From Slackia sp. (GTDB lineage: Bacteria; Actinomycetota; Coriobacteriia; Coriobacteriales; Eggerthellaceae): a stretch of 64,000 nt of DNA. A program made the position numbers and the translations under genes. Below are positions 58,674-64,000 of this stretch, in pieces (position 1 is the first letter of the stretch; every line of letters begins with the position of its first letter). The notes below the pieces were generated by a model that made no database searches, had not been told where the DNA came from, and saw nothing but the letters and a program-made list of their open reading frames with translations. The stretch spans positions 62,001 to 126,000 of the forward strand of contig JARIED010000008.1 of NCBI GenBank assembly GCA_029266945.1. Direction: 5' to 3'.

Positions 58674-58895
58674 ATGGAGACCATCGAAATCGTGAAGTCC
58701 GTCCTGCAGGACAACCTGGACATCGACCCCGCCGACGTGACCGCCGATTCCACGTTCGAAACGCTCGGCGTCGACTCGCTCGACATGGTCGAGCTTGTGT
58801 GCGACCTGGAAGACCGCTGCGATATCGAGTTCGGCGAGCCCGATGGCTTGACGACGGTCGGCAACCTGGTCGACTACATCGAGTCGCTGCGTTAG
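58674..58895 (+). CDS. acpP: Acyl carrier protein (copy 2, fab cluster)
   Basis: VDSLDMVELVCDLEDR phosphopantetheine site. Confidence 0.96.
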   Translation: METIEIVKSVLQDNLDIDPADVTADSTFETLGVDSLDMVELVCDLEDRCDIEFGEPDGLTTVGNLVDYIESLR

Positions 58896-58903
58896 GAACG
58901 CAC

Positions 58904-59881
58904 ATGGAAACGCGTGTGACCGAGCTATTCGGGATCGAGCATCCGGTAATCCAAGGCGGCATGGCGTGGGTCGCCGACGGCAGGCTTGCGGGCGCGGTAT
59001 CGGCCGCGGGCGGTCTTGGCATCGTGGCCTGCGGCGCGGCGCCCCTCGCCTGGATCGAAGAGCAGATTGCCATCGCCCGTGCTCTGGCGCCGTGCGCGCC
59101 TGTGGGGGCCAACGTCATGATGATGAATCCCGACGTCGAGCGCGCTGCCGACCTTCTGGCGCGTCTGCACGTCGACGTGATCACGACGGGCGCGGGAAGC
59201 CCGTCCCGATTCATCGAACGATGGAAAGAGGCAGGTGCGAAGGTGGTGCCTGTGGTGGCGCAGGTCGCCCAGGCGGTTCGCATGGAGCGCCTGGGGGCCG
59301 ATGCGGTGGTGGCCGAGGGCTGTGAGGCCGGCGGCCACATCGGCGAGACGACCACCATGGCGCTCGTGCCGCAGATCTGCGATGCGGTGAACATTCCGGT
59401 GATCGCGGCGGGCGGCATCGCCGACGCCCGTACGGCCGCGGCCGCACGCGTTCTGGGCGCCGAAGGCGTCCAGGCGGGCACGAGATTTCTCACGGTGGAG
59501 GAGTGCTGCGTGTCCGAAACCTATAAAGACAAGGTGCTGAACGCCAAAGACTCCGACACCATCGTGACGGGGCGCGTGACGGGGCACCCCGTTCGCGGTC
59601 TGAAGAATCCCTGGTCGCGTTCGATGAAGGCGCTTGAGCGCACCGTGACCGACATCGCGGCGCTCGAAGGCATGTATGCGGGTTCCCTGCGCCGCGCCGT
59701 CGAGGGCGACGCCGAGGGCGGTTCGTTCATGGCCGGCCAGGCGGCAGGCATGGTGAAGACGCGCGGCAGCGCGGCCGATGCCGTGCGCGAGCTTTCCGCC
59801 GGTTTCGCGGCGGGCGATGCGACCGCGCGTGCGGCGGCGCCGCTTCGCGACCTGCGCGAAGGAGGCGAGGCTCGTGGGTAA
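58904..59881 (+). CDS. fabK: Enoyl-[ACP] reductase FabK (FMN-dependent, NPD-like)
   Basis: LFGIEHPVIQGGMAWVADGRLAGAVSAAGGLGIVACG, EGCEAGGHIGETTTMALVPQI. Confidence 0.93.
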   Translation: METRVTELFGIEHPVIQGGMAWVADGRLAGAVSAAGGLGIVACGAAPLAWIEEQIAIARALAPCAPVGANVMMMNPDVERAADLLARLHVDVITTGAGSPSRFIERWKEAGAKVVPVVAQVAQAVRMERLGADAVVAEGCEAGGHIGETTTMALVPQICDAVNIPVIAAGGIADARTAAAARVLGAEGVQAGTRFLTVEECCVSETYKDKVLNAKDSDTIVTGRVTGHPVRGLKNPWSRSMKALERTVTDIAALEGMYAGSLRRAVEGDAEGGSFMAGQAAGMVKTRGSAADAVRELSAGFAAGDATARAAAPLRDLREGGEARG

Positions 59882-60818
59882 GCTTGCCATCCTGTGCAGC
59901 GGCCAGGGCTCTCAGAAATCGGGCATGGGCGCGGCGTTTTCGGGCCGGCCCGAGTTCGACGAGGTGTTCGAAGCGGCTTCCGACATGTGCGGATACGACG
60001 TGCGCGCGGCTTGTTCCGACGAAGGTGCGCTGGCCGATGCGCTGAAGGTACAGCCGGCTTTGTGCGCCGCCTCGATCGCCGCCGCCCGCGCTCTCGAGCT
60101 CGAAGGCGTATTCGCCGACGCCGTGGCGGGCTTTTCGCTCGGCCAGGTGGCCGCTCTCAACGTGGCGGACATGCTGTCGCTTGAAGACACGTTCGCCCTG
60201 TGCTCGGCCCGCGCGCATGCTATGGCCGAAGCGGCGGCTGCGACCCCGGGGGCCATGTGCGCGCTCATGGGGGCGGACGACGAATCGGTCGCTGCGCTGA
60301 TCGCGGATGTCGCGCAAGGCGCGGTGCTTGTGGCCGCCAACTACAATGCACCCGGCCAGATCGTGGTTTCGGGCGAGCGCGATGCGGTCGCCCGAGCGGC
60401 CGAAGCGTGGCGCGGATCCGGCCGTCGGGCGAGCATGCTCGCCGTGGCGGGCGCTTTCCACAGCCCGCTTATGCAGAACGCAGCCGACGCGCTGGCGTCG
60501 TTTCTGCGGGGCGTGCGTTTCGCCGAGCCGCGCATCCCGCTGATCTGCAACGTGGACGCTCGTCCGCTTCGCGCCGCCGACGCGGCCGAGCGCATGGTTC
60601 GCCAGGTCACATCGCCCGTGCTGTTCGATCGCAGCGTCGCGTGCTTGCAGGCATCGGGCGTGGACGCCTATGTCGAATGCGGCAGCGGCGTGGTTCTGCG
60701 AGGCCTCGTGCGCAGGACGCATAAAGAGGCGGCCCGTTACGGGGTCGAATCGATGGAGGACGCCCGCGCGCTGGCATCGCAACGCGCCGCGGTCCGTCAG
60801 CGAGAGGATATCCAATGA
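59874..60818 (+). CDS. fabD: Malonyl CoA-ACP transacylase
   Basis: LCSGQGSQKSGMG, AGFSLGQVAAL, GAFHSPLM; GTG start. Confidence 0.94.
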   Translation: MGKLAILCSGQGSQKSGMGAAFSGRPEFDEVFEAASDMCGYDVRAACSDEGALADALKVQPALCAASIAAARALELEGVFADAVAGFSLGQVAALNVADMLSLEDTFALCSARAHAMAEAAAATPGAMCALMGADDESVAALIADVAQGAVLVAANYNAPGQIVVSGERDAVARAAEAWRGSGRRASMLAVAGAFHSPLMQNAADALASFLRGVRFAEPRIPLICNVDARPLRAADAAERMVRQVTSPVLFDRSVACLQASGVDAYVECGSGVVLRGLVRRTHKEAARYGVESMEDARALASQRAAVRQREDIQ

Positions 60819-61576
60819 CACAGACGAAAACCGTCCGCCGCCATGCCGTGGTGACGGGCGCTTCGCGCGGCATCGGCGCCGCCGTGGCGCGCAGCCTCGC
60901 GGCGGCCGGCATGGACGTGGCCGTGAACTACGCGAGCCCTTCCAGCGAGCAGGCCGCCGAAGACCTGGCGTGCGAATTGGCGCGCGAATTCGGCGTGCAG
61001 GCATACGCCGTGCGCGCCGACGTTTCGTCATCCGACCAGGCCGAGGCCTTGATCGCGGGCGCAGCGGAGCGCTTTGGCGGCGTGGACGTGTTGGTGAACA
61101 ACGCGGGCGTCACGAAAGACGGCCTGATGATGCGCATGAAGGAAGAAGATTTCGACCGCGTTCTGGCCGTAAACCTCAAAGGCACGTACAACTGCTGCCG
61201 CGCGGCGGTGGGGCGTATGGCGAAGGCCCGCTTCGGTCGCATCGTCAATATGAGCAGCATCGTGGGCGTGCGCGGCAACGCCGGCCAGGCGAACTACGCC
61301 GCATCGAAGGCGGGCATTATCGGTTTGACGCGCTCGCTGGCCATGGAAGTGGCGTCGCGTAATGTCACGGTGAACGCCGTGGCTCCCGGCCTCGTGGAGA
61401 CCGATATGACCGGCGCCATGAGCGAGCGTGCGAAGGATGCGGCGCTCGAGCGCGTGGCGTCAAAGCGCATGGGAAGGCCCGAGGAAGTGGCCGCTGTGGT
61501 GGCGTTTCTTGCGGGCGATCAGGCAAGTTATGTGACCGGGCAGGTCATCGGCGTGGATGGAGGAATGTCGCTATGA
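60815..61576 (+). CDS. fabG: 3-oxoacyl-[ACP] reductase
   Basis: VVTGASRGIGAAVARSLA, LVNNAGVTKDGLMMRM, YAASKAGIIGLTRSLA. Confidence 0.95.
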   Translation: MTQTKTVRRHAVVTGASRGIGAAVARSLAAAGMDVAVNYASPSSEQAAEDLACELAREFGVQAYAVRADVSSSDQAEALIAGAAERFGGVDVLVNNAGVTKDGLMMRMKEEDFDRVLAVNLKGTYNCCRAAVGRMAKARFGRIVNMSSIVGVRGNAGQANYAASKAGIIGLTRSLAMEVASRNVTVNAVAPGLVETDMTGAMSERAKDAALERVASKRMGRPEEVAAVVAFLAGDQASYVTGQVIGVDGGMSL

Positions 61577-62838
61577 CGGACACTCGAAAGCCCGACGGCA
61601 CGCATCGCGTGGCCATTACCGGAACGGGCGCGCTTTCGCCCGCGGGCGTGGGCGTGGGCTCCCTGATGGACGCGGTGAACGAAGGCCGCAGCTGCATCGC
61701 GCCGATCGCGCGCTTTGACACCGAGGGCTATCCCGCCACGCTGGCGGCCGAGATTCCCTCGTTCGACCCGGTCGCGTGCGGTCTGACGAAAAAGGAATCG
61801 CGCCGCTTCGCCCCGTTCGTCCAATACGCCATCGTGGCTGCGGACGAGGCCATGGCCGAAAGCGGCCTGTCGATGGAGGAGGAAGACCCGACGCGTGTGG
61901 CCTGCGTGTGGGGCAGCGGCATCGGCGGCCTGCTCGAGTTCGAATCGGCTTGCGCCGCTTTGCACGAGCACGGCCCCAAGAAAGTCAGCCCTCTGTTCAT
62001 TCCCACGATGATAGAGAACATGGCCGCGGGCAACCTGTCGATTCGCTATGGCATGAAGGGCGATTGCCTGAGCATCGTCACCGCATGCGCTACCGGTGCC
62101 CATTGCGTGGGCGAGGCTTATCGCCTGATCCGTCATGGCTACGCCGACGCGGCGTTGGCGGGCGGCAGCGAAGAGTCCATTTCGCCGGTATGCCTGGCGG
62201 GCTTCGGCAATCTGGGCGCGCTGTGCACCTCCGACGACCCCGCCGCATCGGCCATGCCGTTCGACGCGAACCGCAGCGGCTTCGTGCCGGGCGAAGGCGC
62301 GGGCGCGCTCGTGCTGGAATCGTTCGAGCACGCCCTCGCGCGCGGCGCGCACATCATCGCCGAGGTGGCGGGCTTCGGTTCGACGGGCGACGCCTATCAC
62401 ATGACCGCTCCCGATCCGAGCGGCGAAGGGGCTGTGCGGGCGATGCGCGCCGCGCTCGCCGAAGGCGGCTTCGAGCCTTCCGACGTCGGGCACCTCAACG
62501 CCCACGGCACGTCTACGAAGGCCAACGACGCCATGGAGGCCGCGGCGCTCGCGGCGCTGGTCGGCGCCGATGCGAATGTGCCGGTGACTTCGGTCAAGGG
62601 AACGGTCGGCCACATGATGGGCGCGGCGGGCGCTATAGAGGCGATCGTATGCGCCTTGTCGGCGGCGAACGGCGCGGTGCCGCCTACCGTTGGCACGCGC
62701 GAGGTCGATCCCGCCTGCCCGGTGAACGTGGTGACGGGTTCGCTTCTGCGCACGGGGCCGCAGACCGTGGCGCTCAGCAATTCGCTCGGTTTCGGCGGAC
62801 ACAACGCTTCGCTCGCCATCGCGCCGTTCGAAGGCTAG
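61573..62838 (+). CDS. fabF: 3-oxoacyl-[ACP] synthase II
   Basis: ITGTGALSPAGVGV, SIVTACATGAHCVGEA, HLNAHGTSTKANDAME. Confidence 0.95.
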   Translation: MTDTRKPDGTHRVAITGTGALSPAGVGVGSLMDAVNEGRSCIAPIARFDTEGYPATLAAEIPSFDPVACGLTKKESRRFAPFVQYAIVAADEAMAESGLSMEEEDPTRVACVWGSGIGGLLEFESACAALHEHGPKKVSPLFIPTMIENMAAGNLSIRYGMKGDCLSIVTACATGAHCVGEAYRLIRHGYADAALAGGSEESISPVCLAGFGNLGALCTSDDPAASAMPFDANRSGFVPGEGAGALVLESFEHALARGAHIIAEVAGFGSTGDAYHMTAPDPSGEGAVRAMRAALAEGGFEPSDVGHLNAHGTSTKANDAMEAAALAALVGADANVPVTSVKGTVGHMMGAAGAIEAIVCALSAANGAVPPTVGTREVDPACPVNVVTGSLLRTGPQTVALSNSLGFGGHNASLAIAPFEG

Positions 62839-62995: not shown

Positions 62996-63433
62996 ATGGA
63001 ACTGACGTATCCCGCCGGCCGCGACGCGGTGCTGGCCATCCTGCCTCATCGCGAACCCTTCGTCTGGGTGAGCCGCATTCTGTCGTGCGAGCCGGGCGTC
63101 CGTATCGAGGCCGAGCTCGACGTCGATTCCGACCTCCCGCTGTTCGCGGGTCATTTCCCCGAGCATCCGGTGCTGCCGGGCGTCATCGTGATGGAGGCGC
63201 TTGCCCAGGCCGCTTCGTGCTGCGTGCTGCTGGCGGGCGATGACTGCGGCAAGGTGGGCTTTCTGACGGGCATCGACAAGGCGAAGTTCCGCCGCCAGGT
63301 GCGCCCGGGCGACACGCTGCGCCTGGAGGCGCGCATCGTGAAGTCGTCGTCGCGCATGTGCGTTGCCGAGGTGGAGGCGCTCGTCGACGGCCGGCTTGCC
63401 GCGTCGGCCGTCCAGAAATACGTCTTGGCCTAA
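62996..63433 (+). CDS. fabZ: 3-hydroxyacyl-[ACP] dehydratase
   Basis: ILPHREPFVWVSRIL, LFAGHFPEHPVLPGVIVMEALAQ. Confidence 0.95.
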   Translation: MELTYPAGRDAVLAILPHREPFVWVSRILSCEPGVRIEAELDVDSDLPLFAGHFPEHPVLPGVIVMEALAQAASCCVLLAGDDCGKVGFLTGIDKAKFRRQVRPGDTLRLEARIVKSSSRMCVAEVEALVDGRLAASAVQKYVLA

Positions 63434-63442
63434 GGAGTTTCG

Positions 63443-64000
63443 ATGCGTCGGAAAAAGCCCGATTACATAGTGATGTCGAACGTCGAGGGCGCCGCCGCAG
63501 GCGAGAGCCTGTTCGACCTTGCGCGCAAGGGGTTCTCGTGCGCGTTGGTGGTGGACGGCCGCCATGCCTTCGACGAAGTTCCCGCAGCGGTCAGGTCGGT
63601 GGGCCTGCGCACGGCGGTCGCCTACACGCAGGACATGGCTGCAAGCCCGCGCTTGTCGCTTGCCGAGCAGTGCGTGAGCATCGGCGAGCGGGCCGACGGC
63701 GGTTCGTTCGACGACGCCTACCTGGTGCTCGCCGCCGCCCAGTCGGCCGGCGCCGATCTTGTGCTGCTGGTGGATTCGCCGCTCGCCGCCGACGTCGACT
63801 TCGTGGGCATGGCCCGAGGCGAAGGACTCGGCGTGTATGCGGTGGACGTCGATCGCGTGGTAGCGGGCGCGTTCGGCGGCATGACGTCAGCGTGGCGTTC
63901 GTGCGCGTGCGCCACCGGCCTGGTGCGCCCTGTCGACGAGGAGTCGTGGCGTCGCTGCCCTTCGTGCGGCGGCATCTTCGCGGCCCATGCGGTGTTCGCG
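63443..64000 (+). CDS. Truncated ORF: biotin-carboxylase-N-domain-like region followed by AccD-like zinc ribbon (runs off window)
   Basis: Manual translation MRRKKPDYIVMSNVEGAAAGESLFDLARKGF...GLRTAVAYTQDMAASPRLSLAEQCVSIGERADGGSFDDAYLVLAAAQSAGADLVLLVDSPLAADVDFVGMARGEGLGVYAVDVDRVVAGAFGGMTSAWRSCACATGLVRPVDEESWRRCPSCGGIFAAHAVFA; no in-frame stop. Confidence 0.6.
   Translation, partial: MRRKKPDYIVMSNVEGAAAGESLFDLARKGFSCALVVDGRHAFDEVPAAVRSVGLRTAVAYTQDMAASPRLSLAEQCVSIGERADGGSFDDAYLVLAAAQSAGADLVLLVDSPLAADVDFVGMARGEGLGVYAVDVDRVVAGAFGGMTSAWRSCACATGLVRPVDEESWRRCPSCGGIFAAHAVFA

Follow-up and report, generated by a model that had tools for sequence, protein, structure and literature searches.

What is a piece of biotin carboxylase (BC) doing at the front of a carboxyltransferase (CT) gene? 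The window analyzed here, a stretch of 64,000 nucleotides from a Slackia sp. contig, ends inside such a gene, immediately downstream of fabZ in a fab cluster (Table 1). The initial annotation, made from the window alone, read its start as a degenerate N-terminal domain of BC (BC-N) joined to AccD, an unusual architecture for an acetyl-CoA carboxylase (ACC). Below we consider what the complete protein is, how widely it is conserved, how it may have arisen and what the BC-derived domain might do.

Architecture of the fused protein

The ATG at 63443 has AAGGAG just upstream, a good ribosome-binding site, and the reading frame stays open to the end of the window. Contig sequence past the window (from a draft genome of 39 contigs) completes a protein of 755 aa, in which the BC-N-like domain (residues ~30-140) is followed by AccD (162-419), a linker and AccA (499-755). 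The AccD part passed TIGR00515 (323.1 bits against a cut-off of 317.45), and the AccA part passed NF041504 (315.6 against 300 bits) and also matched PF03255 (339 bits, 3e-101). Two AccA equivalogs scored below cut-off in the 755-aa protein, namely, NF004344 (332.4 against 357) and TIGR00513 (290.4 against 319.3). The suspicion that AccD, and possibly AccA, would follow past position 64000 was therefore borne out by these three models within one chain, as was the attachment of BC-N to AccD. The gene product is predicted to be the CT half of ACC, with AccD and AccA in a single chain and the BC-N-like domain in front. One detail of the initial annotation was wrong: it paired C154-A-C156 with C172/C175 as the zinc ribbon. 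This register was ruled out because C156 is not conserved and the standard four-cysteine AccD ribbon, read from the full protein sequence, comes after it (C172-x2-C175-x15-C191-x2-C194); by chance, C154/C156 and C172/C175 have the same spacing as the true ribbon.

Table 1. Features of the fab cluster and of the fused gene in the window
Feature	Coordinates	Strand	Remarks
fabK-type enoyl-ACP reductase	58799..59881	+	ORF; order conserved in relatives; named by sequence reading
fabD	59778..60818	+	ORF; order conserved in relatives; named by sequence reading
fabG	60815..61576	+	same cluster
fabF	61573..62838	+	in relatives from the same order that lack the extension, accB is located between fabF and fabZ; absent here
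fabZ	62996..63433	+	immediately upstream of the fusion; separated from accD by accC in unextended relatives from the same order
(BC-N-like)-AccD-AccA predicted carboxyltransferase gene, first 186 of 755 codons	63443..64000	+	remainder past window end (genome G000, contig C11; L002:3444-5711)
Variable short N-terminal segment preceding the domain	63443..63529	+	mostly modeled without structure; longer linker in relatives
BC-N-like domain	63530..63904	+	extension profile positions 1-118
Stretch homologous to AccC residues 3-102	~63536-63844	+	within the BC-N-like domain
AccD zinc ribbon, first CxxC (C172, C175)	63956..63967	+	second CxxC (C191, C194) outside the window

Several lines of evidence identify the extension. 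Searched against the window protein alone, PF00289 (Biotin_carb_N) gave an E value of 5e-4 and 20.9 bits, under its cut-off of 25.5 bits, and it was matched by all 13 homologous extensions examined (best 5e-11). A profile built from these 13 extensions and run against the PDB found 47 distinct matches at E values up to 0.01, every one a BC-containing biotin-dependent carboxylase, with the best at 6.6e-13 over profile positions 3-102. The same profile matched each of the 12 Coriobacteriia AccCs tested, from AccC residue 3 and mostly to ~100 (E values of 3e-11 to 5e-17). An AlphaFold model of the window region, made with ten named relatives, predicts a five-strand alpha/beta fold for the extension, with block-mean pLDDT mostly 69-86 within the domain. 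All 50 Foldseek matches listed for this model were biotin-dependent carboxylases (E values of 3e-7 to 8e-6, with 102-118 columns aligned). The extension thus has both the sequence and the fold of the BC N-terminal domain (PF00289), and the homology first noticed by eye holds: the extension is almost certainly homologous to the N-terminal (pre-ATP-grasp) domain of BC.

The catalytic parts are gone. None of the 31 extensions compared keeps the HPGYG residues (H79, P80, Y82, G83), and in the ANRGE motif N is kept in none and E in one of the 31. A search of the 755-aa protein with PF02785 gave no match, the only one in the genome being to a separate accC. Both the ATP-grasp and the C-terminal BC domains by which a BC enzyme would be recognized are missing from the fused protein. 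Judged by its sequence, the extension cannot act as a working BC, in agreement with the earlier remark that a degenerate GYGFLSEN motif made a functional BC half improbable.

Conservation and origin of the extension

AccD was found in 84 of 140 genomes of the Eggerthellaceae, the family of the window, and in 76 of the 84 it lies within an ORF of 748-996 aa. The remaining eight comprise three genomes that genuinely lack the extension (G103, G073, G112) and five in which the gene is split or truncated at contig ends (G040, G041, G050, G095, G109), four of these still showing the extension. In G101, G010 and G011 the ORF is long (798-827 aa), with an extension that is strongly diverged yet recognizable. 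A related-locus search starting from close alignment returned 11 named loci, all of Eggerthellaceae genera. Sister groups have an AccDA of 577-579 aa or an AccD of ~289-340 aa, both without the extension (577 or 289 aa in relatives resembling Atopobiaceae and Collinsella), and among 397 Actinomycetota genomes sampled at an E value of 1e-14 no other family carried it. A class-wide search added a few Coriobacteriia (G140, G306, G240 and relatives). The source of the window is a 39-contig draft, which might suggest a chimeric contig or a wrongly called start. Dozens of independent genomes share the architecture, however, among them single-contig ones (G052, G053, G054) and the isolates Rubneribacter badeniensis, Eggerthella sinensis and Enteroscipio rubneri, and the chance of an assembly or gene-calling artifact is negligible. 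BC-N-AccD-AccA is a conserved architecture across the Eggerthellaceae and not a local oddity.

Two side observations concern this distribution. In the isolated members of other Coriobacteriia families that carry the extended cluster (G140, G240, G306; loci L071, L069 and L070), the fab genes are ~48-67% identical, and G140 is the sole member of its order with the extension; these isolated occurrences suggest that the whole cluster moved into other Coriobacteriia by horizontal transfer. Separately, AccD was absent at the threshold used from 29 of 94 high-quality Eggerthellaceae genomes, including two of the window's genus (examples are G106, G107, G029, G030 and G035). PycB::AccB, described below, is kept in the two of these that were read (G106, G029), and such species may have lost fatty-acid synthesis.

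Across 15 species pairs, simple Nei-Gojobori estimates over short stretches gave dN/dS of 0.03-0.23 for the BC-N-like domain in 14 pairs and 0.30 in one, compared with 0.03-0.26 for AccD and, in 13 of 14 pairs, 0.17-0.59 for the linker preceding the domain. Because its values are near those of AccD and below those of the linker, the domain looks to be under purifying selection rather than decaying. Together with the wide distribution, this ruled out a local pseudogene or an assembly chimera. A neutral leftover of accC, retained merely because it is in frame, would fit the lost catalytic residues and the position of the domain in the accC slot of the cluster (see below). Such a leftover is very improbable given the low dN/dS and the retention of the domain in nearly all AccD-bearing species.

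Gene order points to a source. All 21 extended loci checked read fabF-fabZ-[BC-N]AccD-AccA, with both accB and accC missing from the cluster, whereas in each of the eight unextended loci accC immediately precedes accD and accB is close by. Four of the latter (L059, L060, L061, L063) have the order accB-fabZ-accC-accD-accA, preceded by fabK-D-G-F where the stretch reaches, and the other four (L062, L064, L065, L076) have accB-accC-accD-accA. The accB-accC pair is missing from the cluster in 21 of 21 extended against 0 of 8 unextended loci, a correlation with the extension among related species. Separate accB and accC genes, which the initial annotation had suggested seeking nearby, are likewise not in the window's cluster; an intact accC is found on a different contig. 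By this comparison the BC-N piece occupies the accC slot after fabZ and matches the 5' end of accC. The enoyl reductase of the cluster is, by sequence reading, of the FabK type instead of FabI. In L063 (genome G103), from the window's own genus, AccD is not preceded by BC-N and the gene order is the complete fabK-D-G-F-accB-fabZ-accC-accD-accA; its FabZ is only 37% identical to that of the window, and the cluster is likely a replaced one or a retained one of ancestral type.

We propose that deletion in an ancestral operon, fabK-D-G-F-accB-fabZ-accC-accD-accA, would have removed accB and roughly three quarters of accC, leaving the 5' end of accC fused to the accD-accA gene. This is the simplest history, and the extension is probably a remnant of the neighboring accC. 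The assignment follows from synteny, as a tree with AccCs was unable to place the extension within AccC: the extensions form a single clade (support 100/100) on a branch ~2.2 long, and the source AccC was not placed. Counting against the proposal, the extension carries extra residues ahead of BC-N, which a simple deletion should not have left behind.

Supply of carboxybiotin in trans and the role of the domain

If the fused CT cannot make carboxybiotin, where would it come from? The window's genome encodes one complete BC (accC, 449 aa, TIGR00514) and one biotinyl domain, the latter at the C terminus of a 624-aa PycB (L037:2137-5364, contig C33). The last ~150 residues of this PycB match AccB at full length (TIGR00531, 150.6 bits against a cut-off of 115.2), and the PycB::AccB gene adjoins the genome's only accC. 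The same PycB::AccB sequence occurs in other family members read (L075, L090, L092-L095). A single biotinyl domain and a single BC were found in 23 AccD-bearing species of at least 95% completeness, while Eggerthella- and Gordonibacter-like species have an additional separate accB-accC pair (L074, L078). We predict that BC and BCCP work in trans with the fused CT as an acetyl-CoA carboxylase. In species whose only BCCP is the AccB part fused to PycB and whose only BC is AccC, ACC and pyruvate carboxylase most likely share both.

A CT of this kind would need carboxybiotin from a BC and BCCP encoded elsewhere, and this reliance makes a BC-derived domain on the CT a plausible docking piece. The noncatalytic BC-N would keep the CT beside AccC, encoded in trans, and its BCCP, aiding docking or assembly; in the window's genome the partner would be AccC plus PycB::AccB. 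For the whole chain of events, in which an accC remnant on AccDA now serves as a predicted docking or assembly domain, we judge the chances to be even. A full-length model from ten close homologues had a pLDDT of 42, too poor to show contacts. Among the BC dimer-interface residues, R16, known from E. coli BC, is kept in 12 of the 31 extensions, R19 in 6 and E23 in 5 (with D in another 10). R19 and E23 of the BC dimer helix have been tested in pyruvate carboxylases (PMC5059739). Since these three residues are not generally kept, simple mimicry of the partner helix of the BC dimer is not supported, and any contact would differ from that of the BC dimer.

Two other roles for a selected domain deserve consideration. 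The domain may only stabilize the CT, covering the AccD zinc-ribbon face or aiding oligomerization, with no outside partner. It directly precedes the zinc ribbon, the junction carries a WxxC motif in which C is invariant and W nearly so (13-member alignment), and AccD and AccA accompany it in the same chain. Sister taxa nevertheless use a 577-aa AccDA without it, and all unextended loci have accB-accC beside accD, pointing to the supply of BC and BCCP as the correlate; we regard a purely stabilizing role as unlikely. Alternatively, the remnant could have turned into a regulatory domain of the CT that binds a ligand or effector. BC-N has a Rossmann-like alpha/beta fold, the extension is under purifying selection, and it bears a signature of its own missing from AccC, Y-T-x-D (T33 and D35 in 30 of 31, E53 in 24 of 31). 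These conserved positions are equally compatible with a structural role, the domain has no known ligand site, and no evidence of a regulator or ligand was found; we give regulation a small chance.

Returning to docking, a more specific and rather doubtful version is that, where a species has one BC and one BCCP (the AccB part of PycB), the pseudo-BC-N docks the CT onto AccC/PycB::AccB, so that a single carboxybiotin pool would serve both pyruvate and acetyl-CoA. Transcarboxylase moves carboxyl groups between oxaloacetate and methylmalonyl-CoA; docked in this way, the assembly could even move them between oxaloacetate and malonyl-CoA.

Relation to known carboxylases

The zinc ribbon, the AccD and AccA domains and the location in a fab cluster are as in the bacterial heteromeric CT (AccD plus AccA), from which the protein differs in being one chain with a BC-N-like domain in front. 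In other Coriobacteriia, the fused AccDA (577-579 aa, e.g., L059-L061) is likewise a single AccD-AccA chain in a fab cluster but lacks the N-terminal extension and has accB and accC in the cluster. With AccC, the extension shares BC-N homology across AccC residues 3-102; unlike AccC, it has no ATP-grasp or BC-C domain, has lost HPGYG and is not an enzyme alone. Multidomain carboxylases (eukaryotic ACC, the single-chain long-chain acyl-CoA carboxylase 4rcn and AccADCB 9kkm) also join BC and CT sequences within a single polypeptide, in their case with a complete BC, whereas here there is BC-N only. As in the two-subunit pyruvate carboxylase PycA/PycB (PMC5059739), a trans-encoded AccC lies beside a PycB with a biotin domain, but the carrier part here matches AccB at full length (TIGR00531) and probably also serves the AccDA CT. 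Three kinds of fusion are already known: BC to CT where the BC is complete, AccD to AccA, and BC to BCCP (PMC11077971). These genera go unmentioned in Lombard and Moreira's survey of the family (PMC3199775). We found no description of a conserved BC-N-only extension of AccDA in the literature searched, a search whose coverage excluded most subscription journals.

ACC is essential for fatty-acid synthesis and is an antibacterial target, and how bacteria assemble its BC, BCCP and CT parts is incompletely understood. For ACC assembly, a conserved, noncatalytic BC fragment joined to the CT amounts to a natural experiment, one that hints at where BC and the CT may come into contact and offers a testable piece. 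It also presents what is probably a gene remnant that has become a domain under selection, and it leads to the probable sharing of one BC/BCCP module by the acetyl-CoA and pyruvate carboxylases of gut Coriobacteriia.
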